This document shows, in pieces, positions 4,800-20,280 of a stretch of 38,587 nt of DNA. The position numbers were made by a program, and so were the translations under genes. Below the pieces are notes generated by a model. That model was not told where the DNA came from and made no database searches. It saw only the letters and a list, made by a program, of their open reading frames with translations. This DNA comes from Patescibacteria group bacterium (GTDB lineage Bacteria > Patescibacteriota > Patescibacteriia > Patescibacteriales > JAQTRU01), in NCBI GenBank assembly GCA_028711415.1, contig JAQTSG010000006.1, forward strand, positions 1 through 38,587. The letters are read 5' to 3'. Each line of letters starts with the position of its first letter. Within the stretch, counting starts at the first letter, position 1.

Positions 4800-7031
4800 T
4801 TATTTCTTATACCCGCAATCTTTGTTGCTGCATTTCACCCCATCTTTGGCTTCTACCAATAACGCTTCGCAATCAGGGCATTTCTCGCCGGTGGGTTTTG
4901 CCCAAAAAGCGGTTTTACAGTCAGGGTATTGGTTGCAGGCGTAAAAGATTCCTTTGCGGCCGCGTTTCTGGACAATTTCTCCTTCCCCGCAGACCGGGCA
5001 CTTAACGCCGGTTGGTTTATTAGCGGTTGTATTTTCTTTTATATTTTTTAAATTCCGGCATTTCGGAAAAGCGGAGCAGGCCAGGAACGGACCGTATTTG
5101 CCAACCTTAATGGCCATGGGCGAACCGCATTTTTCGCAGGTTTCCCCTTCGTATTTTTTTTGGATTTCCTCTATTTCCTTATTGTCCGTCTGGCCGTTTT
5201 TATCTTTATCAGAGCCGGGCATGGATTTAATGTTTTTACAATCAGGAAAAGCGCTGCAGGCCAGAAATTTTCCGAAGCGGCCGGTTTTAATTATCATCGG
5301 CGCGCCGCATTTATCGCATTTTTCGTTTGATTTTTCTTCCGGCATAATTTTATTTTTATCAATTTCTTGATATTTGTTAGTTAGATTATCATGAAACGGC
5401 TCATAGAAACTCTTTATTACCGGCGGCCACTTAGTTTTGCCGGCAGCAATTTTATCTAAATTATCTTCCATGTCAGCCGTAAATTTATAATCAACGATTT
5501 CGGAAAAATGCTTAACCAATAAATCAATCACGACAAAGGCGATATCGGTCGGAGCCAGTTTTTTATTTTCATCGCGGACAACATAATTTCTCGCTTCAAT
5601 CGTGGCAATCGTCGGGGCGTAAGTGGACGGTCGGCCGATGCCGTATCTTTCCAAAGCTTTAACCAGGCCGGCATCGGAATACCTGGCCGGGGGTTTGGTA
5701 AAATGCTGCTGGCTGTCCAGTTTTTTTAAATCCAGTTCCTCTCCCTCTTTTACTTCCGGCAATTGGATTTCTTTGCTTTTTTCCGGATAAATTTTTAAAT
5801 AGCCGTCAAATTTTAAAACTTGGCCGGTTGCCCGGAATTGGTAAACCGTATTTTTAGCGTCAACATCAATAACCGTGGCGTCTACGGCCGCAGACGGCAT
5901 CTGGCTCGCTAAGCTTCTTTGCCAGATTAATTTATATAATCGGTATTGGCTTTCTGCCAGAGATGATTTTTCCGGAGTTTTTTCCGCTTCAGTCGGACGG
6001 ATAGCTTCATGGGCTTCCTGGGCATTTTTAGATTTGGTTTTAAAAACGCGGGGAGAGGAAAGGCAGTATTTTTTTCCCAATTCTTTTTCCAAATAATCCT
6101 TGGCTTCGCTTAAAAATTTGCCAGACAGGTTAAGGGAGTCGGTTCTCATGTAGGTAATTAAGCCGCTTTCATATAATTGCTGGGCTACCGTCATCGTCTG
6201 CTTAGCGCTCATCCCGAGCCAACGGTTGGCGGTTTGCTGGAGAGTAGAAGTGGTAAAAGGCGCGGGCGGATTTTTTTTAGCCTCTTTTCTTTCAACCTTG
6301 GCGACCTGGTAGCGGGCGCCTTCAAGCTCTTTTAAAACCATTTTCGCTTCTTTCTCGTTTTTTATTTCCAGCTTATCGATGGTTTTTCCCTTGATTTTAT
6401 TTAAAGCGGCCGTAAATTCCTCGTTGGTTTTTTCTTTAGAAAGGTTAGCCAGGATGCTCCAGTATTCTTCCGGCTTAAAATTTTTAATTTGTTTTTCCCG
6501 TTCAACGATTAAGCGGACGGCAACCGACTGCACCCGGCCGGCCGATAAGCCCCGCGCCACTTTTTTCCATAAAAACGGGGAAAGCTCATAGCCAACCAGC
6601 CGATCTAAAATCCGGCGGGCCTGCTGGGCGTCCACCAATTTCATATCAATCGTTCGGGGACTCTCTAAAGCTTCCAGAATCGCATCCTTGGTAATTTCAT
6701 GAAAAACTATTCTTTTTGTTTTATCTTTATCTAAATCAAGCGCTTTTGCCAAATGCCAGGCGATGGCTTCTCCTTCACGGTCTTCATCAGAAGCCAGGAT
6801 AACGTTGGTCGCTTTTTTCGCCAGATCTTTCAGTTTAGTGACGGTTTTTTTTGCTTTTGTCGGGATAACGTATTTGGGGGTAAAGCCATTCTCAATATCA
6901 ATCCCCATAACGCTTTTCGGCAAATCGCGGATATGGCCAAAAGAAGATTCAATCTTATAATTTGAACCTAAAAATTTTGTGATGGTTTTGGCTTTAGTTG
7001 GCGATTCAACGATAATTAAATTTTTGCTCAT
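4800..7031 (-). CDS. topA: DNA topoisomerase I (type IA)
   Basis: MSKNLIIVESPTKAKTITKFLG, DEDREGEAIAWHL, active-site region YESGLITYMRTDS, four C-terminal Cys zinc-finger modules. Start set at 7031 (ORF track 7067). Confidence 0.97.
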   Translation of the reverse strand: MSKNLIIVESPTKAKTITKFLGSNYKIESSFGHIRDLPKSVMGIDIENGFTPKYVIPTKAKKTVTKLKDLAKKATNVILASDEDREGEAIAWHLAKALDLDKDKTKRIVFHEITKDAILEALESPRTIDMKLVDAQQARRILDRLVGYELSPFLWKKVARGLSAGRVQSVAVRLIVEREKQIKNFKPEEYWSILANLSKEKTNEEFTAALNKIKGKTIDKLEIKNEKEAKMVLKELEGARYQVAKVERKEAKKNPPAPFTTSTLQQTANRWLGMSAKQTMTVAQQLYESGLITYMRTDSLNLSGKFLSEAKDYLEKELGKKYCLSSPRVFKTKSKNAQEAHEAIRPTEAEKTPEKSSLAESQYRLYKLIWQRSLASQMPSAAVDATVIDVDAKNTVYQFRATGQVLKFDGYLKIYPEKSKEIQLPEVKEGEELDLKKLDSQQHFTKPPARYSDAGLVKALERYGIGRPSTYAPTIATIEARNYVVRDENKKLAPTDIAFVVIDLLVKHFSEIVDYKFTADMEDNLDKIAAGKTKWPPVIKSFYEPFHDNLTNKYQEIDKNKIMPEEKSNEKCDKCGAPMIIKTGRFGKFLACSAFPDCKNIKSMPGSDKDKNGQTDNKEIEEIQKKYEGETCEKCGSPMAIKVGKYGPFLACSAFPKCRNLKNIKENTTANKPTGVKCPVCGEGEIVQKRGRKGIFYACNQYPDCKTAFWAKPTGEKCPDCEALLVEAKDGVKCSNKDCGYKK

Positions 7032-10352: not shown

Positions 10353-11741
10353 TTATTCCCTGTGCTGTCCATGCGTTTTTCTTCCCTTATCTACTTCTAT
10401 GCTAATCGGCGTGCCGAGGAAGCCAAATTTTTCCCGCAGGCGGTTGGCGATGAAGCGGACATAGGAGAAATGCAGGTCGTCTTTGGCGCCGATCCGCAAC
10501 TGGAATTTCGGCGGGTTGTTTTCAATTTGCTTAAATTCGTAAATATGGGGGTGTCTCGCGCCCTTGCCTCTGGCCGGCAGATGGATTTTCACGATTTTTA
10601 AAAGAAACTTGTTAAGCTGGGAATCGCCTAAGATTATTTTTCTTCCCGCGTCAATTTCTAAAATTAAATCTAGAATTTTATTCGCTTTGCTGCCGGTTAA
10701 AGCGGAAGTAAAATGAATCGGCGCCCAAGTCGCGAAAGGGAATGAGCCGTAAATATAATTGGTAAATTTCTTTGGGTCTTTCTTCGCAATCAGGTCCCAT
10801 TTGTTAGCGATAATAATTAAGCTCGCTTTTCTTTCCACAATTTCTTCAACCAGCTTCGCGTCCTGGTGGGTTATATCTTCATTTATATCAATGACCAGTA
10901 AAGCGATATCGGATTTTTCCAGAGCTTTCAAAGATTTCATAATTCCGTGCTTTTCCAAACCTTTGGTCTTCGTTCCTTTTTTACTGATGCCGGCCGTGTC
11001 AACGAGGATAATCGGCTTTTCTTCATAAATAATTTCCGTATCCTGCGGTTCGCGGGTGGTGTGCGGTTCCGGGCTTACAATTACCCGCTCGTAGCCCAGA
11101 ATGGAATTTAAGAGACTGGATTTGCCGACATTGGGCTTGCCGATAATACAGACCCTGGTGGAATTTTCCGGCAAAAGATTCTTTGCCCCCGCAGACGGTT
11201 TTACTTTTTTAACAATCAGGTCCAATAGGTCTCCGGTGCCGGCGCCGGTAGCGGCGGAAATCGGGAAGGGCTCGCCTAAGGAGAGTTTATTAAATTCAGC
11301 CGATTCAGGCGCCTGCCGGAAATTATCAACTTTATTAGCCACCAAGATTATTTTTTTTGTTTCTTTTAAAGATTTTTTAACAAACAAAGCCATCTGTCTG
11401 TCCATAGGGAGCAAGCCGGTTTTAACGTCAACCAAAAATAAAATCAAATCCGCCCGCGTTAAGTATTGCCGGGCCTGATGCTGAACTTTGTCTTCAATAC
11501 TGCCTAATTTTTCCTTTGCTAAAATTTCCCGGGGCAGTTTCATAATTCCGCCGGTATCAACCAGGGCAAATTTTTTTCCCCGCCAGCTCACTTCGTTTAG
11601 GTTGCTGTCTCTCGTCGTGCCGGCGATATCAGAGACTAGGGCCTGGTTTTTTTCCGTTAAGCGGTTAAAGAGAGTTGATTTGCCGACATTAGCGCGGCCA
11701 AAGATGACGACGAGGGGAAGATTGTTTTTTACGGATTTCAT
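10353..11741 (-). CDS. der: ribosome biogenesis GTPase Der (EngA)
   Basis: Two tandem GTPase domains: GRANVGKST/DIAGTTRD/DTGG/NKVD and GKPNVGKSS/DTAGI/NKWD; C-terminal KH-like domain. Confidence 0.96.
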   Translation of the reverse strand: MKSVKNNLPLVVIFGRANVGKSTLFNRLTEKNQALVSDIAGTTRDSNLNEVSWRGKKFALVDTGGIMKLPREILAKEKLGSIEDKVQHQARQYLTRADLILFLVDVKTGLLPMDRQMALFVKKSLKETKKIILVANKVDNFRQAPESAEFNKLSLGEPFPISAATGAGTGDLLDLIVKKVKPSAGAKNLLPENSTRVCIIGKPNVGKSSLLNSILGYERVIVSPEPHTTREPQDTEIIYEEKPIILVDTAGISKKGTKTKGLEKHGIMKSLKALEKSDIALLVIDINEDITHQDAKLVEEIVERKASLIIIANKWDLIAKKDPKKFTNYIYGSFPFATWAPIHFTSALTGSKANKILDLILEIDAGRKIILGDSQLNKFLLKIVKIHLPARGKGARHPHIYEFKQIENNPPKFQLRIGAKDDLHFSYVRFIANRLREKFGFLGTPISIEVDKGRKTHGQHRE

Positions 11742-11790
11742 AGTTTCTAGTAGAATTCAAAAAGATCTAATATTTAAAACTAAAGTAAAA

Positions 11791-11877
11791 AGTTATTAAA
11801 GTTTATAAAGTTATAAAGTCGCTCAGTCGTTGGCGCTCTAGAAACTTTATAACTTTATACTTTATAAACTTTCAACT
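11791..11877. repeat. intergenic inverted repeat between der and the LCP gene
   Basis: agttattaaagtttataaagttataaag / ctttataactttatactttataaactttcaact. Confidence 0.65.
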
Positions 11878-11882
11878 AATAT

Positions 11883-13415
11883 TTATTTTTCCGGATTATC
11901 CGTCCCGGAAGAAGTCTTATCCGCATCCTGGCCCAGTATCAGGATGAAATCAGGTTGCTCCGGGGTTTTTTCATCCGCCAGCTCATTTTTTATATCGTCA
12001 ATCAGCCATTGGGGCAGACTGAAAGAGACGTTAGCGCCGGTTTTTTCTTTTAAAACAGACAAAGATTCCATTTTTTCCCCGTAAGTAAGGTCATAAATTA
12101 CGGATTTCTGGAAATCCTTTTGGCTTGAGTTGCTAAGGCGGACAACATTAAATCCATATTTTTCCAGATCCAGGGCGGTGACGCTCGCCAGCCCGTTTAT
12201 CCAGGTTCCGTTTCTTATGTCTAAAGACGCTTTTTCCACCTTTACTTTCGTTTTGGCTTCAATCGGAGCGTCAGAGAAAATATTATTGACTAAATACTGA
12301 ATTTCGGAGAAATCGCCGCCTCGGGGAGATAAAATATAAGCGCCGTCTTCTCCTCGGGCGTCAATCAGAAGGCCGCTTGAACTGTTATCTAAAACTTTGT
12401 TGGTGATATTTTCCTGGGAAACGTCTTTAACTATATTCCAAAGTTTTATCGCCTCCCAAATTTTTACGTTAGTGTTCACATGTTCCTCTAGCTCGCCTAT
12501 GATATTGGTAATTATGCTGGGCCGGAACAAGGTATTTTTTGACAGAAATTTATTTTTAGCCGCCTCTATTACTTTTTGCTGCCGGCGGGAGCGGGCGAAA
12601 TCAGAACCCTCGCCTCCGCCCGCGTGCCGCGAGCGGACATATTTTAAAGCCAGTTCGCCGTCCATTTTCTGCCAGCCCGCCGGAATATAAAGATGCTCAA
12701 ATCTGGCCGCGTATGGCTCGGCTTCTTCCTTTCCCATTATCGGATAGCTTGGATCATTCAGGGTATTTTCCACGTAAACATCAATTCCATCCAATTCATT
12801 TATGATATTTACAAATCCTTCAAAATCCAGGCGGACAAAGTAATCAACGGGGATTTTTAAAACATCGCTTAAGGCCTGCGAGATGGCGACCCCGCCGCTA
12901 CCCAAATTTTTTGCTTCCGCGTAAGCGTTAACATTATTTACTTTTCTCCAGCCCATCCCTTCCATCGGGATAGTTAGATCACGGGGGATAGAAAGCAGAG
13001 CCACTTTTTTCGTTGAGGGCTCTAGACTGGCAAGCATTATCGTATCGGTTAGGTAGCCGCCTTCATGGTTTTTTCCGCCCATGCCTAAAAGAAGAAGATT
13101 AATTCTGTCCCGGTCTTCGCCTTTTAGCTCTTTATCAGCGCTTTCCGCCAGGTGCTTTATTTGCCCGATAATCGGAATTTTATAGATCCAGGAATTCGGG
13201 TTCTGCTCGGAGACGATAACCTGGCTGGAAAAGATAATAAAAGCGATAGAGAAAAAGATTATAAGATAGGTAAAAATTTTAGCGACCTTTTTCTTTTTCA
13301 CCGGCAGAGTTTTTTCTCCTGCCCTTTCTTCAAGTAAGTTTACCCCGTTAGCCCCGCTTAGAAATTTATTTCTAACGGGGTTAGAAATTTTGCTATTTTT
13401 TTCGTAATTATCCAT
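11883..13415 (-). CDS. LytR-CpsA-Psr (LCP) family protein with C-terminal LytR_C-like domain
   Basis: LLLLGMGGKNHEGGYLTDTIMLASLEPSTKKVALLSIPRDL, YFVRLDFEGFVNIINELDGIDVYVE, ALKYVRSRHAGGGEGSDFARSRRQQKVIEA. Confidence 0.93.
   Translation of the reverse strand: MDNYEKNSKISNPVRNKFLSGANGVNLLEERAGEKTLPVKKKKVAKIFTYLIIFFSIAFIIFSSQVIVSEQNPNSWIYKIPIIGQIKHLAESADKELKGEDRDRINLLLLGMGGKNHEGGYLTDTIMLASLEPSTKKVALLSIPRDLTIPMEGMGWRKVNNVNAYAEAKNLGSGGVAISQALSDVLKIPVDYFVRLDFEGFVNIINELDGIDVYVENTLNDPSYPIMGKEEAEPYAARFEHLYIPAGWQKMDGELALKYVRSRHAGGGEGSDFARSRRQQKVIEAAKNKFLSKNTLFRPSIITNIIGELEEHVNTNVKIWEAIKLWNIVKDVSQENITNKVLDNSSSGLLIDARGEDGAYILSPRGGDFSEIQYLVNNIFSDAPIEAKTKVKVEKASLDIRNGTWINGLASVTALDLEKYGFNVVRLSNSSQKDFQKSVIYDLTYGEKMESLSVLKEKTGANVSFSLPQWLIDDIKNELADEKTPEQPDFILILGQDADKTSSGTDNPEK
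13342..13387. repeat. CCCCGTTA/TAACGGGG palindromic element inside the 5' end of the LCP CDS
   Basis: accccgttagccccgcttagaaatttatttctaacggggttagaaat, translated as SNPVRNKFLSGANGV. Confidence 0.8.
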
Positions 13416-13525
13416 ATTTATAAAACCCCGCTTAGAAATTCCAGCGGGGGATTAAACCCCGCCGTAATTACTTTTAAATCTAACCTTTAACGCAGGATAA
13501 TGGTGCGTTATTTCTAAACGGGGTA

Positions 13526-13815: not shown

Positions 13816-14163
13816 CTAGAATCCGCCCAATAGAAAAAGACAACTACCAAAGACAAGAATTGGAATTAAAGCCACCGAAATTATACCGATAGCAATGAAT
13901 CGCCTATCTATCTTAAAGAATAAAACCATTAATAAAATTAAAATAATTAGGTAAATAAAAAGATTCACAAAGCCCCAATTTCTCGATGAAAGCAAAGGAT
14001 ATAACACAACCCATAAAATGGAGTTTAGAATTATAATGCCAAAAAAACCAAGAATAAAATCGCCAACCTTTTTCCCAGTTGTTGTGTAATAGTTGGGTTT
14101 TTGAAAATTATTGTAAATAATTTTTCCTTCTTGATTTTGGGGATTTACATTATGGTTTTCCAT
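13816..14163 (-). CDS. small membrane protein, unknown
   Basis: 115 aa, three hydrophobic segments, same strand and tightly following the 131-aa ORF. Confidence 0.6.
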   Translation of the reverse strand: MENHNVNPQNQEGKIIYNNFQKPNYYTTTGKKVGDFILGFFGIIILNSILWVVLYPLLSSRNWGFVNLFIYLIILILLMVLFFKIDRRFIAIGIISVALIPILVFGSCLFLLGGF

Positions 14164-14168
14164 ATTGT

Positions 14169-14564
14169 TTATAGTTTATTTTTTAATATTATGTTTATGA
14201 AATATACCCAAACAATTAAAATAAGCGCTATCAAATATCCTACAGAATAATAAACGTTAGGAATTGCAACATTCATAGTTTTAAATATTATGATAAGTCC
14301 TAATATTAAAGGCGAAATAAATGCGAGAGCAAAACTGCCAAGTAAAATATATTTGCTCTTTTTGGCTGATAGTAACCCAATAACCAAAATAACTGTCAAT
14401 CCTATTGCGGAAGGCACTCCGGTTATAGATATATTTAGATTTTTTTCAACAAGCAATCCTCCATACATAAAAATAAATTGTATAAGCACAAAAATCACAA
14501 TTCCCAAAAAGAAATATTTCAAGACATTTTCGTCTTTTTTAAAGTTATTTATATTGTTTTCCAT
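14169..14564 (-). CDS. small four-TM membrane protein, unknown
   Basis: 131 aa; four hydrophobic segments; overlaps the preceding Lgt-like ORF by 20 nt. Confidence 0.65.
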   Translation of the reverse strand: MENNINNFKKDENVLKYFFLGIVIFVLIQFIFMYGGLLVEKNLNISITGVPSAIGLTVILVIGLLSAKKSKYILLGSFALAFISPLILGLIIIFKTMNVAIPNVYYSVGYLIALILIVWVYFINIILKNKL

Positions 14565-15333
14565 ATGTTTTTTGCTTAAAAATGAGGTTTTTAATATTGC
14601 CTCTGGTTAGATAAATTATAACACCGATTGAAATTATTTGAAATATGGTCAACCCCGCAAAAATTACTGGTTCAACCCGTATAAATTCAACAAAAAATCT
14701 AAAAATGAAATAAGAAATCATCAACATTTTAAAAAGCTGACCGGGTTTTAGATCTTCCCTATCTTTTATTTTTTCTAAATAAAAAAACATGATGAGCATA
14801 AACAAAGATTCGTAAAGTTGCGTAGGGTGCCTTAAAATTCCATCGCCAAAATTTACTCCCCATGGCAAAAAAGTCTCCTTGCCGTAACAACAACCGCGAA
14901 AAAAACAGCCCAATCTTCCAATAGCAACACCCATCGCTATAGCTGGAGCAAATAAATTACCTCGTTTTTCCTTAATTCCCAAAATTTTTTTAGTTAATAT
15001 GGCTCCAATAGTGCCACCGATCAATCCGCCAACAATTGTCCTTCCAGAAAAAATTATTTCAAAATTGGATAGATGAGATAAAATATATTTATAATCAATT
15101 ATCCATTGCAAAATTTTTGCCCCGAGTATTCCGCCAGCTAAAGAACCAATTGCAATAAAAAATCCTCTTTCGTTTAAACTTTTTTGCCGTCTTGATTCAT
15201 AAAAATAAATTGAAATTCCGACTAATAATCCGAGCAAAACAAAAAAAGAATAAGAAGGAATTTCAAAATTCTCTATTTCAAATAAAACGGGTTTTATTCC
15301 CCAATTTTGCGGATAGTAATGATCGTCAATCAT
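14545..15333 (-). CDS. divergent prolipoprotein diacylglyceryl transferase (Lgt)-like membrane protein
   Basis: SGRTIVGGLIGG, AIGRLGCFFRGCCYGKE, LRHPTQLYESL, RFFVEFIRVEP align by eye to Lgt motifs. Confidence 0.85.
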   Translation of the reverse strand: MIDDHYYPQNWGIKPVLFEIENFEIPSYSFFVLLGLLVGISIYFYESRRQKSLNERGFFIAIGSLAGGILGAKILQWIIDYKYILSHLSNFEIIFSGRTIVGGLIGGTIGAILTKKILGIKEKRGNLFAPAIAMGVAIGRLGCFFRGCCYGKETFLPWGVNFGDGILRHPTQLYESLFMLIMFFYLEKIKDREDLKPGQLFKMLMISYFIFRFFVEFIRVEPVIFAGLTIFQIISIGVIIYLTRGNIKNLIFKQKTYGKQYK

Positions 15334-15772
15334 GTTTTTTTATAAAGGCACAACAACTGTCATTTGTAGCGCATTCGTATAATTTTGATGCGGGGCAAAA
15401 TCCAAATGCAGAAATACTTTTAAGAAGAGCAAAAATAAATACCGCTATCCAGCCAACTTGCTCGCTTACAAAATACAAAAGGAATAAGCAAATCAAGCTG
15501 AAAATACTGCCCATGATATGAGCAAATCTCATCGCGTGTTCATTTAAAATTTCGTCTGCCGATTTACTTATTTTATTTATAGTATAGCTATAAAATAAAA
15601 TCATTGGCGCCCTCTGAATTTTCAATATCGCAGACAATAGAAAAATTATGAAAACAAAAATCAAAATAATTTTCAAGTGAAAAATTAATGAAAGCCATAT
15701 TAAAATAGCTATACTATAGCGACAAAATGCAAATGCCGCCTTTGGCACCGCTACTGGTTTATACTTTTTCAT
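15326..15772 (-). CDS. DUF4395-like membrane protein
   Basis: 148 aa; hydrophobic; NEHAMRFAHIMGSIFSLICLFLLYF...SAFGFCPASKLYECATNDSC resembles the DUF4395 C-terminal FGFCxxCxxY region. Confidence 0.55.
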   Translation of the reverse strand: MKKYKPVAVPKAAFAFCRYSIAILIWLSLIFHLKIILIFVFIIFLLSAILKIQRAPMILFYSYTINKISKSADEILNEHAMRFAHIMGSIFSLICLFLLYFVSEQVGWIAVFIFALLKSISAFGFCPASKLYECATNDSCCAFIKKHD

Positions 15773-16398
15773 AAATTTTTAAAAATTTTAGGGAAAAACA
15801 TCCCGACTTTTATTTGATAATTTTTATAATTTTCAAACTCTTTGGTAAGTAAATTCTCCTCTTGCTTCGCCCGATAATACATAAACGGGATGAAAATAAG
15901 GGCATTGACCCCAAAAGCAAGCGGATTAAAATAAATTAAACTTGCTCCAAAAAACATCCAAATAATTGAAGCATAAAGAGGATGTCTGACAAAACTATAA
16001 ACTCCGTTAGAAACGAAATAATGATCATCATAAATTTTTATCTGGTTAGACCAGTTCTTTCCTAATTTCATTCTACCCTTAATGTTTACAACGCAACCAA
16101 GAATTAAAATCAATAAGCCGAAGGTTATGATAAAAATTTTTAGCGGTAAATATGACACATTAATTTGACCCACGCTAAACCTGATTAAAAAATAAAAAAA
16201 GAAAAAGAAAAGAAACATAGTTCCTGTTTCTACGATACTCTTTTTTTCTTTTTTAACCCGTGTTCTTTTTTGAAATTCCACAAAATCTATCAAGACTGCG
16301 ACAAAAATAAAACACACACACAAAATAACAATTATATTGCTAAATAGATAAAAAATCCTTTCGGGGCTATCAAATAAGCTTTTAAAATCAAATATCAT
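15769..16398 (-). CDS. isoprenylcysteine carboxyl methyltransferase / PEMT-like membrane methyltransferase
   Basis: 209 aa; VSNGVYSFVRHPLYASIIWMFFGASL...YYRAKQEENLLTKEFENYKNYQIKVGMFFP is the ICMT/PEMT C-terminal signature. Confidence 0.85.
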   Translation of the reverse strand: MIFDFKSLFDSPERIFYLFSNIIVILCVCFIFVAVLIDFVEFQKRTRVKKEKKSIVETGTMFLFFFFFYFLIRFSVGQINVSYLPLKIFIITFGLLILILGCVVNIKGRMKLGKNWSNQIKIYDDHYFVSNGVYSFVRHPLYASIIWMFFGASLIYFNPLAFGVNALIFIPFMYYRAKQEENLLTKEFENYKNYQIKVGMFFPKIFKNL

Positions 16399-16400
16399 AA

Positions 16401-17771
16401 TTATTTTCTATGCAAAATATTATAAGAGGAAAAAGGAATTTTTCTCAAATCTGGAGTAATAACATGGACACACTCCTTCTTCATTGACTTCATATCAAAA
16501 TTGCAGGCATCAACAAACGAAGTAACGCTTATTCTGAAGGTATTTTCACTCACATACTCTATTTTGTCCTTTTCAGATTTTAATAAGTAGCTGCTAGGGA
16601 CAATTTTTTTAAATTTTTTCAGCAAAGTTAAGTAATTACAGCAGTCTCCACTTGAGCAAAAAATATTTTTTGCCAAATCTTTTAAAAAATCTTCCGGGTC
16701 AAACTTAAAAGTATTTCTAATAATCGGCAAATAATTTTTAATATCCAAATCCCGCATCAAGGGGATAAATTCATTTTTTATTCTGTACAAGTAAGTTATT
16801 GCAACCCTGTCAACATTGCAGGGCAGGGGGATAAAATCATTTTTTCTAATCATTCCATTCGTTTGTTTTTCGATTTCTTTGATAATTCCGGTTATAGTAA
16901 TTCTGTTTTTCTTGTTCACATTGCCGAGGCGGCCAAAAAAAGCCACTGGTTGAAAATTTATGCCCCGAATATATTTGGTGTTTATGCCAAACTCAACAAT
17001 TTTTCCAATTTCATGATCGTTTATTTCTTTCTCAATTGTAGAAACAAGCGTTATTGGAATTTTATATTTGGTTAAATTTTTAATGGCTCTTATTTTTATT
17101 TCAGACAAATTTCTCCCGCGCAAATGTTTATATGTTTTCTCATCAAATCCGTCAAACTGAAAATAAATTTCAAAACCTCCGACAAATTGACTCAGCTCTT
17201 TGACAAAATTTTCATCGTCGGCTATGCGCAATCCATTAGTGTTTAACATCACATATTTAATTTTCTTTTTTCTCGCAAGTCTTATAATCTCAATAATTTG
17301 CGGATGCGTTGTTGGTTCGCCGCCGCTGATTTGCAGAATTTCAGCGTTGCCAAATTCTGAATCAAGAAAAAATTTCAGCATTTCATCAATTTTTTCCAAA
17401 GGCAAATAACTGCCAATTCCACTATTCGCGTAGCAAGTGGGACATTTTAAATCACAATCTTTTGTTACCTCGATAAGTCCGATACAAGTATGCTGTTCAT
17501 GCTCCGGACAAAGTCCGCAATCATAAGGACAATTATTTTTCCTTACTGTTTGTGTTTTTGAAACCGAGCCAGGTTTTGTATACTGCATTCTTTTCAAATA
17601 ATATTCAGCATTTTCTTCAAGTATTTCCTCTTGCTCACCATGGTTAAAACAGTATTTTGATATAAAAATTTTATTATCCTTTAAGATAATTTTTGCGTCA
17701 ACTCTCTTTAAACAAATTGGACAAAGACTTGTTGTATACTCAATAAATTGGTAATTTTTTTGGTTGGACAT
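16401..17771 (-). CDS. radical SAM protein of the Tes/MJ0619-like family
   Basis: 456 aa; N-terminal rubredoxin-like CPICLK...CFNHG, auxiliary CPYDCGLCPEHEQHTC, radical SAM CDLKCPTCYA, ISGGEPTTHP. Confidence 0.8.
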   Translation of the reverse strand: MSNQKNYQFIEYTTSLCPICLKRVDAKIILKDNKIFISKYCFNHGEQEEILEENAEYYLKRMQYTKPGSVSKTQTVRKNNCPYDCGLCPEHEQHTCIGLIEVTKDCDLKCPTCYANSGIGSYLPLEKIDEMLKFFLDSEFGNAEILQISGGEPTTHPQIIEIIRLARKKKIKYVMLNTNGLRIADDENFVKELSQFVGGFEIYFQFDGFDEKTYKHLRGRNLSEIKIRAIKNLTKYKIPITLVSTIEKEINDHEIGKIVEFGINTKYIRGINFQPVAFFGRLGNVNKKNRITITGIIKEIEKQTNGMIRKNDFIPLPCNVDRVAITYLYRIKNEFIPLMRDLDIKNYLPIIRNTFKFDPEDFLKDLAKNIFCSSGDCCNYLTLLKKFKKIVPSSYLLKSEKDKIEYVSENTFRISVTSFVDACNFDMKSMKKECVHVITPDLRKIPFSSYNILHRK

Positions 17772-17784
17772 AATATTTTCAACT

Positions 17785-17967
17785 TTATTTTATCAAATCA
17801 TCAACGCCAACCTTAAGAGCTTTGGCTATTTTTGATAAAGTTTCTATTGTCGGATTTTTATTTGTACCGGGTTCAATTTTAATAATGATGTTGTAGGTAA
17901 CATCCGCCAGTTTTGAGAGGCGATCTTGAGAAACACCAATTTTATTTCGGTATTTCTTAATATCAGT
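17785..17967 (-). pseudogene. XRE-family HTH regulator with 5' end fused to a tRNA 3'-end relic
   Basis: IKKYRNKIGVSQDRLSKLADVTYNIIIKIEPGTNKNPTIETLSKIAKALKVGVDDLIK is a clear HTH_XRE; no plausible ATG at the domain start; upstream frame reads through tRNA-like sequence and a palindrome. Confidence 0.6.
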
Positions 17968-17991
17968 CGGGATGCCGGGAGTCGAACCCGG
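17967..17991 (-). other. tRNA 3'-end relic (T-arm plus acceptor)
   Basis: Reverse complement CCGGGTTCGACTCCCGGCATCCCGA has a T-arm and acceptor 3' strand; no matching 5' half found adjacent. Confidence 0.6.
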
Positions 17992-17993
17992 GT

Positions 17994-18025
17994 TACCCCG
18001 CACGAAAGCGTAGCTTTCTGCGGGG
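17994..18025. repeat. GC-rich palindrome abutting the tRNA relic
   Basis: accccgca-cgaaagc-gta-gctttc-tgcgggg. Confidence 0.8.
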
Positions 18026-18069
18026 CAGGCATGCACCTTTACCCCGCTCCTTTTTTGGTTTCAATATAG

Positions 18070-18140
18070 TCGGGATGGGGAGAATCGAACTCCCACTACG
18101 CCCACCCCATGGGTGCGTACTACCACTATACTACATCCCG
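18070..18140 (-). tRNA. tRNA-Pro (anticodon GGG), CCA not encoded
   Basis: Reverse complement CGGGATG-TA-GTATAGTGGTAGTAC-G-CACCC-ATGGGGT-GGGCG-TAGT-GGGAGTTCGATTCTCCC-CATCCCG-A folds as a cloverleaf with one mismatch in the anticodon stem. Confidence 0.8.
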
Positions 18141-18826: not shown

Positions 18827-18879
18827 ATTTTCTTTAATCCCCCTTACCCCCTTTTTGAAAGGGGGTGTATAATATAATT

Positions 18880-20280
18880 ATGGATATAGACTTAGAATTG
18901 CTTTCAATTCAAAACCCCTGGTGGCGGCAATTAGGAACCGGAGAGCGGCTTATTAAGAGTCTTGATTTTGATCCGGTGATAAAAAATTTTGAGAGCCAGC
19001 CGTTAAAATCACAGCCAAGGATTTTAGACGAGGTTTTTTTAGACCGCGATAATATTTATGTTTTATACGGCGGGCGTGATTTAGGCAAGACCACGATTTT
19101 AAAACTCTTGATTAAAAAGCTGATGACCGAGAAAAAAACCGAACCGGATAATATCTTTTATTACTCCTGCCATAACCTTGATACTTATGAAGAGCTTAAT
19201 GAACTGGTTAAAATATTTCTAAACTGGCGCCGGGCCGAAACGTTTAAGCGCCTTTTTATTTTTATTGATGAAATCAGCTTAATAAAAAACTGGCCCAAGG
19301 GAATTAATTATTTAGCCAAAGCCAAGAAGCTAAAAAACGTTACGGTTATCTTAGCCAGTTCCCGGCGGGAAGGTTTAAAGAATAAAGCCGGAGAACTTTT
19401 AACTAAAGATAAAATTATTACCAGTCTTGATTTTTCCGAATTTTTAAGATTGCTGAATCCTAAGCTGTTGGAGAAAGTCAGTAAAGACAATTATAGAAAT
19501 CATCAGGACCAGCTTGAGTATTATTTAGATATCTATTTTTTAACCGGCGGTTTTATTCCTTGCTTAAATAGCTATCAGAAAGAAGGGGCGATAAGCCAAA
19601 GTATTTACAGCGATTATTTTTACTCCTTAACCGCCGATATCGCCAAGCTCGGCCGGGACGTAATTTTAATGCGCCAGATTTTAGAGCAGATTCTTCTTAA
19701 CTTAGGCCGGCCTTTGGGCTATAAAACCATCGCGGCTAAGACTAAAGCAAAAATCCATTTAACCATTGCCGAATATTTGGAAATTTTAGAATCAATGTTT
19801 GTTATAAAAATGGTTTATCAGTCGGATAGAGGCGGCCGGCCAACCAGCCGCAAAGCCAAAAAAATTTATTTTCTTGACCCGTTTCTCTTCTGGCTCTTTT
19901 ATTCCCATATCAACGGCTCGCTTAATTACTGGCCTTTTAGCCGCGAGCGTCTGCACCGCCAGGATGTCTTCAATGCCTTGGTGGAAAACGTGGTGTTTGC
20001 CCACTTGGCCAGAAATGGAGATGGGGAAGGGAAAGAGCGCCTTACTTATTGGCGCGACAATATTCACAAGCAGGAAATAACTTTTTTAGTCCATAACGGG
20101 AAAAAGACAATGCCGGTTCTGCTTCGCTATAGCCAGGAAATAAAAAATGAAGACTTTAAAATATTTAAGCAGGCCGGGTTTAGAGAGGGGATAATTATCA
20201 GCCGGAACAGACTGGAAGATAAAGGCAAGATAAAAATTATGCCCTTAACTTATTTTTTACTGTTTCATGAAGGATTATAA
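18880..20280 (+). CDS. AAA+ ATPase, AAA_14/DUF4143 type
   Basis: Walker A-like YGGRDLGKTT, Walker B-like LFIFIDEI, C-terminal IYFLDPFLFWLFYSH...ENVVFAHLAR; start at ATG 18880 (ORF track uses upstream GTG 18865). Confidence 0.8.
   Translation: MDIDLELLSIQNPWWRQLGTGERLIKSLDFDPVIKNFESQPLKSQPRILDEVFLDRDNIYVLYGGRDLGKTTILKLLIKKLMTEKKTEPDNIFYYSCHNLDTYEELNELVKIFLNWRRAETFKRLFIFIDEISLIKNWPKGINYLAKAKKLKNVTVILASSRREGLKNKAGELLTKDKIITSLDFSEFLRLLNPKLLEKVSKDNYRNHQDQLEYYLDIYFLTGGFIPCLNSYQKEGAISQSIYSDYFYSLTADIAKLGRDVILMRQILEQILLNLGRPLGYKTIAAKTKAKIHLTIAEYLEILESMFVIKMVYQSDRGGRPTSRKAKKIYFLDPFLFWLFYSHINGSLNYWPFSRERLHRQDVFNALVENVVFAHLARNGDGEGKERLTYWRDNIHKQEITFLVHNGKKTMPVLLRYSQEIKNEDFKIFKQAGFREGIIISRNRLEDKGKIKIMPLTYFLLFHEGL

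Follow-up and report, generated by a model that had tools for sequence, protein, structure and literature searches.

A recurring trio of radical SAM, Lgt-like and small membrane protein genes, found in a Patescibacterium and in other phyla, suggests a cassette for lipid or lipid-protein modification

Results

The stretch of DNA analyzed here (the window: 38,587 nucleotides, contig JAQTSG010000006.1 of assembly GCA_028711415.1, from a Patescibacteria group bacterium) carries on its minus strand a cluster of six genes (13816-17771). Its core encodes a radical S-adenosylmethionine (SAM) protein, a divergent Lgt-like protein, and a small membrane protein with a cysteine close to its C-terminus. 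The recurrence of this trio suggests, as far as sequence can tell, an undescribed way of modifying lipids or of attaching them to protein, and the three components very probably constitute a conserved functional unit. The six open reading frames (ORFs), all intact and on the strand first listed, were confirmed where the original prediction (made from the letters of the window alone) had placed them, packed so tightly that no gap or overlap exceeds 20 nt; going from the first gene to the last, successive ORFs are separated by 2 nt, overlap by 4, 8, and 20 nt, and are again separated by 5 nt. Pfam matched radical SAM and zinc ribbon, ICMT/PEMT, DUF4395, and LGT domains, which bears out, for a Patescibacterium, the predicted membrane- or lipid-type operon that includes an ICMT/PEMT-type protein and a divergent Lgt; for the two small ORFs (14169-14564 and 13816-14163), no match at gathering level was obtained.

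A survey of gene neighborhoods, which the prediction had proposed for the radical SAM family, showed that the association is conserved; a lack of conservation in other genomes, named at the outset as an outcome that would refute the prediction, was thus not observed. In a contig of a Buchananbacteria metagenome-assembled genome (MAG; L021), the genes for the radical SAM, ICMT-type, DUF4395, Lgt-like, and small proteins follow each other in the same order, and in G638, a genome of another phylum, the whole set is again found in this order, with a MarR gene upstream; thus, the arrangement is not due to chance. A Falkowbacteria MAG (G046; L022), from the same taxonomic order as the window organism, encodes a homolog of the radical SAM protein, with the partner genes on another contig. 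Altogether, the radical SAM and Lgt-like genes are linked in four phyla (Patescibacteria, Bacteroidota, Actinomycetota, and the phylum of G479), where they lie side by side or have no more than small ORFs, or the ICMT and DUF4395 genes, between them. They overlap in the Bacteroidota Chondrinema and Persicobacter; linkage in Actinomycetota was observed for Nonomuraea, Mycobacterium avium, and M. branderi; and seven further genomes of G479's phylum have the order radical SAM, small protein, Lgt-like, ICMT-like. Relatives of the radical SAM gene that have no Lgt-like neighbor, in Mycolicibacterium vanbaalenii and a haloarchaeon, adjoin methyltransferase genes.

The two genes also occur together. 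Among 200 genomes of G479's phylum, nine encode radical SAM homologs (E ≤1e-30), and it was in exactly these nine that a profile of the Lgt-like subfamily scored between 215 and 335 bits; G646, which lacks the radical SAM gene, reached 175 bits, and the remaining genomes stayed at or below 157 bits, the range of canonical Lgt. The corresponding contrast (9/9 carriers versus 1/191 others; Fisher p=8.5e-15) is overstated by this p value, because genomes of one phylum are not independent and the profile was built partly from them. Within Patescibacteria, one genome of 384 encodes the radical SAM protein and one of 370 the Lgt-like subfamily; it is the same genome. Trees of the two genes from 16 loci had 10 of 13 splits in common, whereas 1000 shuffles of the labels gave 0.17 on average and never more than 3; they have evidently co-evolved.

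The Lgt-like protein (262 aa; 14545-15333, minus strand) clearly belongs to the Pfam family LGT (1.3e-40; 139.7 bits at a cut-off of 24.9) and matches PDB 5azb, but it falls below the cut-offs of the NCBIfam Lgt equivalog models (123 of 334 and 90.6 of 118.9 bits). Compared with Lgt of E. coli, it retains Arg143, Gly154, Glu202, Tyr235, Arg239, and Glu243. In contrast, the signature motif GRLGCFFRGCCYG (14881-14919), in which Arg143 and Gly154 are kept, has cysteine in place of both Asn146 and Glu151, and the alignment places Val101 (codon 15031-15033) at the position of His103, which turns HGGL into VGGL. Arg143, Tyr235, Arg239, Glu243, and Glu202 are part of the hydrogen-bond network around the phosphatidylglycerol pocket of Lgt (PMC4728403, PMC8689077); their counterparts in the window are Arg140, Tyr208, Arg212, Glu216, and Glu175. 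Across 12 linked Lgt-like copies, Tyr235, Arg239, Glu243, and Glu202 are invariant, and Arg143 is replaced by lysine in the G577 group; every linked copy has a hydrophobic residue for His103 and cysteine for Asn146. Thus, the protein appears to have kept its donor pocket and to have altered its acceptor side. As the host genome encodes a canonical Lgt elsewhere (G000:C45), along with LspA and two CDP-alcohol phosphatidyltransferases, the copy in the operon is not the housekeeping enzyme. The role in altering scavenged host lipids that had been envisaged for the operon, as specific to the candidate phyla radiation (CPR), is not supported, given these host enzymes and the presence of the core pair in three other phyla.

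The third member of the core, and the candidate acceptor, is the 115-aa membrane protein encoded last (13816-14163, minus strand), with homologs in loci L021, L041, L042/L058, and L055. Cys108 (codon 13840-13842), in the context ...RRFIAIGIISVALIPILVFGS-C-LFLLGGF, has an equivalent in every complete cassette, each of which encodes one or two small membrane proteins in which a cysteine ends a transmembrane segment. In 18 of 19 such sequences, it lies 4-13 residues from the C-terminus (the exception is G587, L056), a feature shared by only 1 of 31 other small membrane ORFs of the cassette loci. Typically, these proteins end in basic residues, ∼20 hydrophobic residues, the cysteine, and 3-12 more residues, for example LVFGS-C-LFLLGGF (window), LLFLT-C-LGIVAVSN (G577), VIGAGV-C-GSFF (Chondrinema), and ILTAGI-C-TGLNPAMYTWR (M. 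avium). The cysteine is preceded by residues giving GSC in Patescibacteria and G638, (L/M/I)TC in the G577 group, and GxC elsewhere. The bodies differ widely, being Pro-rich in actinobacteria, Gln/Ser-rich in the G577 group, and multi-helix in Patescibacteria. The locus of M. branderi, examined after the pattern had been noticed, encodes two hypothetical proteins between the Lgt-like and radical SAM genes, both with the cysteine ending; in G555, the radical SAM and small proteins form a single fusion, the latter at the C-terminal end (L080:4612-6114). The conserved cysteine had escaped the original prediction, which had listed two small membrane proteins. The other one (131 aa, no cysteine; 14169-14564, minus strand, between the Lgt-like and 115-aa genes) is an orphan seen only at the window locus, with no family match in Pfam or NCBIfam and no homolog in the related loci compared.

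The first gene encodes the radical SAM protein (456 aa; 16401-17771, minus strand), which matches PF04055 (radical SAM; 1.2e-20), PF23545 (HMPTM/Tes N-terminal zinc ribbon; 3.8e-16), and, over its full length, the archaeal tetraether synthase Tes (GDGT-MAS, MJ0619; PDB 7tol; E=1.9e-79 by sequence and 2.5e-117 by profile), with homologs at 80, 75, and 65%. The cysteine motifs read from the sequence at the outset (CPICLK..CFNHG, CDLKCPTC) are present: rubredoxin-like, N-terminal-cluster, and radical SAM CX3CX2C cysteines are all retained, and the latter (Cys106/Cys110/Cys113; 17433-17456) are invariant across 13 aligned homologs. The best curated model is TrsS (NCBIfam NF045646; 358.4 bits over nearly the whole length at a cut-off of 490), the Tes model reaches 325.5 of the 450 bits demanded (NF045702), and the second-best relative in the PDB is the sactipeptide maturase SkfB. 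The ORF has no in-frame TGA. Met439 and Tyr459, completely conserved in ∼1000 archaeal Tes homologs (PMC9433317), correspond to Thr417 and Val437 (7tol numbering, mapped by alignment). Putative ligands of the C-terminal [4Fe-4S] cluster of Tes were assigned here from the alignment; of the HxxC, CC, and PFC cysteines common to Tes and several distant clades, only Cys434 (=Cys456) is left in the window clade, and the Bacteroidota homologs are likewise reduced to one. Cys318 and the Cys377-378 pair might serve as substitute ligands of a rewired cluster. The idea of a Tes-like protein thus stands at the level of the superfamily and fails as an identity: with scores below the Tes and TrsS cut-offs, both marker residues changed, and most C-terminal cysteines gone, the protein is not to be called a tetraether synthase. 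As judged by these comparisons, it is a member of the Tes/TrsS superfamily outside both curated families. A scan of viral contigs with the 13-sequence alignment returned only short or weak radical SAM matches, and phages yielded a single partial match, which speaks against a viral origin. A defense system was rejected as well, since all that PADLOC returned were weak, generic viperin hits confined to the radical SAM core.

Two more membrane proteins complete the cluster. The second gene (209 aa; 15769-16398, minus strand) encodes an ICMT/PEMT-type methyltransferase (Pfam ICMT 1.1e-14, PEMT 1.9e-9; PDB 4a2n 1.3e-15), which scores above the Pfam gathering thresholds of both families and, with 80.7 bits, reaches half of the 160-bit cut-off of the isoprenylcysteine O-methyltransferase model NF040696; it is linked in two of the four phyla, Patescibacteria and that of G479. 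The third (148 aa; 15326-15772, minus strand) encodes a DUF4395 protein (Pfam 3e-14) with a conserved C-terminus, CPxxKLYxC...DSCC, in the alignment. A DUF4395 domain hidden in the C-terminal half of 328-aa ICMT-like proteins was considered and rejected (hhalign probability 0.3%).

Genes around cassettes in other genomes were also inspected. Immediately upstream of radical SAM, several genomes of G479's phylum encode a 1133-1151-aa fusion of a major facilitator superfamily (MFS) protein, an acyltransferase, and an AMP-ligase (LplT/PlsC; LplT/Aas-like architecture), itself preceded by a MarR gene. The Lgt-like gene of G646, which also lacks the histidine (locus L116; G646:C91, 1053-6352), lies downstream of the end of an AMP-ligase-like gene and a gene for a membrane protein with a lipobox-like cysteine, and upstream of UbiA, PPDK-like, and DUF3419 genes. 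The DUF3419 gene is BtaA-like. The G646 cluster is possibly a related lipid pathway, and the LplT/acyltransferase/AMP-ligase, UbiA, and BtaA-like neighbors support a link to lipid metabolism independently of the reasoning behind the original prediction. In G523, the cassette has a gene for a C_GCAxxG_C_C redox protein as its neighbor (L060:4140-4598). In L021, what follows the cassette on the opposite strand (11610-13524) looks by eye like genes for a formate/nitrite transporter, an activating enzyme of pyruvate formate-lyase, and a fragment of the lyase itself; these would suggest an anaerobic setting. In L023 (SKS5.bin41), a membrane protein resembling CPBP/CAAX-type intramembrane proteases, by eye only, is encoded at 5423-6163, two genes upstream of radical SAM with mutL in between.

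The cluster has a G+C content of 30.8%, compared with 41.5% for the window, and adjoins a tRNA-Pro(GGG) gene (18069-18140). A second copy of the tRNA 3′-end (17966-17988) lies 103 bp away, and between this copy and the radical SAM gene is a truncated helix-turn-helix (HTH) gene, the 5′ part of which reads through the copy. The region 17785-18140 therefore looks like the scar of an integration or recombination event close to the upstream end of the cassette. The cassette is nearly absent from related genomes and very patchy across Patescibacteria; together with its low G+C content and the adjacent tRNA gene, this makes horizontal acquisition likely. A complete, bounded island could not be demonstrated: the genome contains only the two copies of the tRNA-Pro 3′-end, 103 bp apart, and no third. 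An AAA_14/DUF4143 ATPase gene (18865-20280, opposite strand) is also located near the tRNA gene.

Discussion

That the chemistry of the cassette concerns lipids, or lipids and protein, is probable. Within this frame, our tentative preference is to view the cluster as one lineage's version of a conserved, mobile cassette for lipid modification or protein lipidation, with a Tes/TrsS-superfamily radical SAM protein, a His-less Lgt-like glyceryl transferase, and a small membrane protein with a terminal cysteine as its core. Phosphatidylglycerol would supply the glycerolipid group that the Lgt-like enzyme transfers to that cysteine; the basic stretch, hydrophobic helix, and G-S-C, T-C, or G-x-C end of the small protein would then imitate a lipoprotein signal at the wrong end of the protein. 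As an acceptor, the cysteine is a serious candidate, the balance leaning slightly against it. The radical SAM enzyme may functionalize alkyl chains by C-H abstraction; its relative GDGT-MAS binds phospholipid tails (PMC9433317). The ICMT/PEMT-type enzyme may methylate the product, and it and DUF4395 would provide lineage-specific finishing steps. The complete picture, a new protein-lipidation system in which a His-less Lgt-family transferase serves a C-terminal lipobox-like cysteine and the radical SAM enzyme remodels or crosslinks lipid tails, is more doubtful than the acceptor step by itself.

Several observations weigh against it. His103 is essential in E. coli Lgt (PMC4728403), and mutants in His103 (A/N/Q/R/Y), Glu151 (A/Q), and Asn146 (Asn146Ala) were inactive (PMC4728403, PMC8689077); as every substitution that these papers report at the positions altered here abolishes activity, the Lgt-like protein may perform no Lgt chemistry, or bind lipid without transferring it. 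In Bacteroidota and Actinomycetota, the cysteine is preceded by Ile, Val, Leu, or Tyr, unlike in a lipobox, and in L056 (G587) and L116 (G646), the cysteine follows an N-terminal rather than a C-terminal helix. The fusion in G555 is as readily explained by an anchor or adapter as by an acceptor. ICMT is missing from the cassettes of Bacteroidota and Actinomycetota, and DUF4395 was seen only in Patescibacteria and G638. With most C-terminal cysteines of the wider family lost from the window clade, C-C coupling via that cluster is doubtful. Finally, AlphaFold2 models from shallow alignments (predicted local distance difference test of 53.9 for radical SAM and 44.2 for Lgt-like) were too poor to be used.

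The main rival dispenses with a protein substrate: the radical SAM enzyme would join or functionalize phospholipid tails, the Lgt-like and ICMT/PEMT-type proteins would remodel and methylate head groups, and the small protein would be an anchor or adapter. Tes sets a precedent, bacterial Tes homologs have been proposed for the synthesis of branched glycerol dialkyl glycerol tetraethers (PMC8941075), the LplT/PlsC/AMP-ligase, UbiA, and DUF3419/BtaA-like neighbors act on lipids and not on proteins, and the G555 fusion keeps this option alive. It leaves unexplained, however, why a membrane-end cysteine is kept in otherwise unrelated small proteins, and Met439, Tyr459, and most C-terminal cysteines of Tes are absent from the window clade; overall, it appears rather unlikely. 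Maturation akin to that of ribosomally synthesized and post-translationally modified peptides (RiPPs) would instead make the small protein a precursor, its cysteine or C-terminal tail crosslinked by the radical SAM enzyme and the product finished or exported by the Lgt-like and ICMT-type proteins. A small protein of variable body and conserved end beside a radical SAM gene, sometimes in two copies, has the appearance of such a precursor, and SkfB ranks second among the structural relatives. Yet no SPASM-type model, RiPP recognition element (RRE)-type domain, protease, or exporter was matched, the closest full-length relatives are Tes and TrsS and not peptide maturases, and the cysteine sits within a transmembrane helix or at its border, all of which makes this explanation improbable.

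Equally improbable is a TrsS-like redox or selenium-related chemistry unrelated to lipids, with the membrane genes as accessories. The best curated model is indeed TrsS (358 bits), and a redox protein gene adjoins the G523 cassette; the score is nevertheless below 490, the ORF lacks a TGA codon in frame, and the conserved partner is a membrane protein of the Lgt family. That the genes are mere passengers of a decaying genomic island at the tRNA-Pro gene, without any coherent function, could be suspected from the G+C content (0.308 versus 0.415), the adjacent tRNA, the truncated HTH gene, and the very patchy distribution in the phylum. As the frames are intact, the gene order is conserved across phyla, and the partner trees are congruent, conservation already contradicts this notion, and it is very hard to sustain.

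Bacterial Tes homologs have been counted by the hundreds, none with a confirmed function (PMC8941075, PMC11868695). Here, one clade of the superfamily is tied to two fixed partners, an altered Lgt and a small protein with a terminal cysteine, which provides a concrete and testable candidate for the substrate. Lipidation of the cysteine, if it occurs, would constitute a route that modifies the other end of the protein than in classical lipoproteins. Should the product instead be a free lipid, the cassette would point to unusual membrane lipids made by bacteria, the ultra-small Patescibacteria among them, and this would matter where such lipids serve as biomarkers. In a literature search of incomplete coverage, no paper was found that connects Lgt with radical SAM and tetraether, or DUF4395 with radical SAM; Lgt, radical SAM, and isoprenylcysteine together matched one genome annotation paper, and no description of the cassette was encountered.

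Of the known systems, Lgt (PDB 5azb/5azc) belongs to the same Pfam family as the Lgt-like protein and differs from it by the canonical His103, Asn146, and Glu151. Tes/GDGT-MAS (7tol/7tom) has in common with the radical SAM protein an N-terminal rubredoxin-like CX2C...CX2H, the CPYDCGLC cluster motif, and the radical SAM core; of the two, only the clade of the window protein is linked here to genes for an Lgt-like and a small cysteine protein. TrsS, reportedly described by Haft and Tolstoy in 2025 as a radical SAM (seleno)protein, is set apart by the missing in-frame TGA and the subthreshold NF045646 score of the window protein. The ICMT/PEMT methyltransferases (PDB 4a2n, 5vg9) resemble the second gene product in the C-terminal SAM-binding region and the RHPxYxS motif, whereas the cassette contains no prenylation genes. 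The lipoprotein signal peptide with its lipobox shares with the small protein the succession of basic residues, ∼20 hydrophobic residues, one or more small residues, and cysteine; in most lineages of the cassette, this motif is found in the atypical position at the C-terminus.

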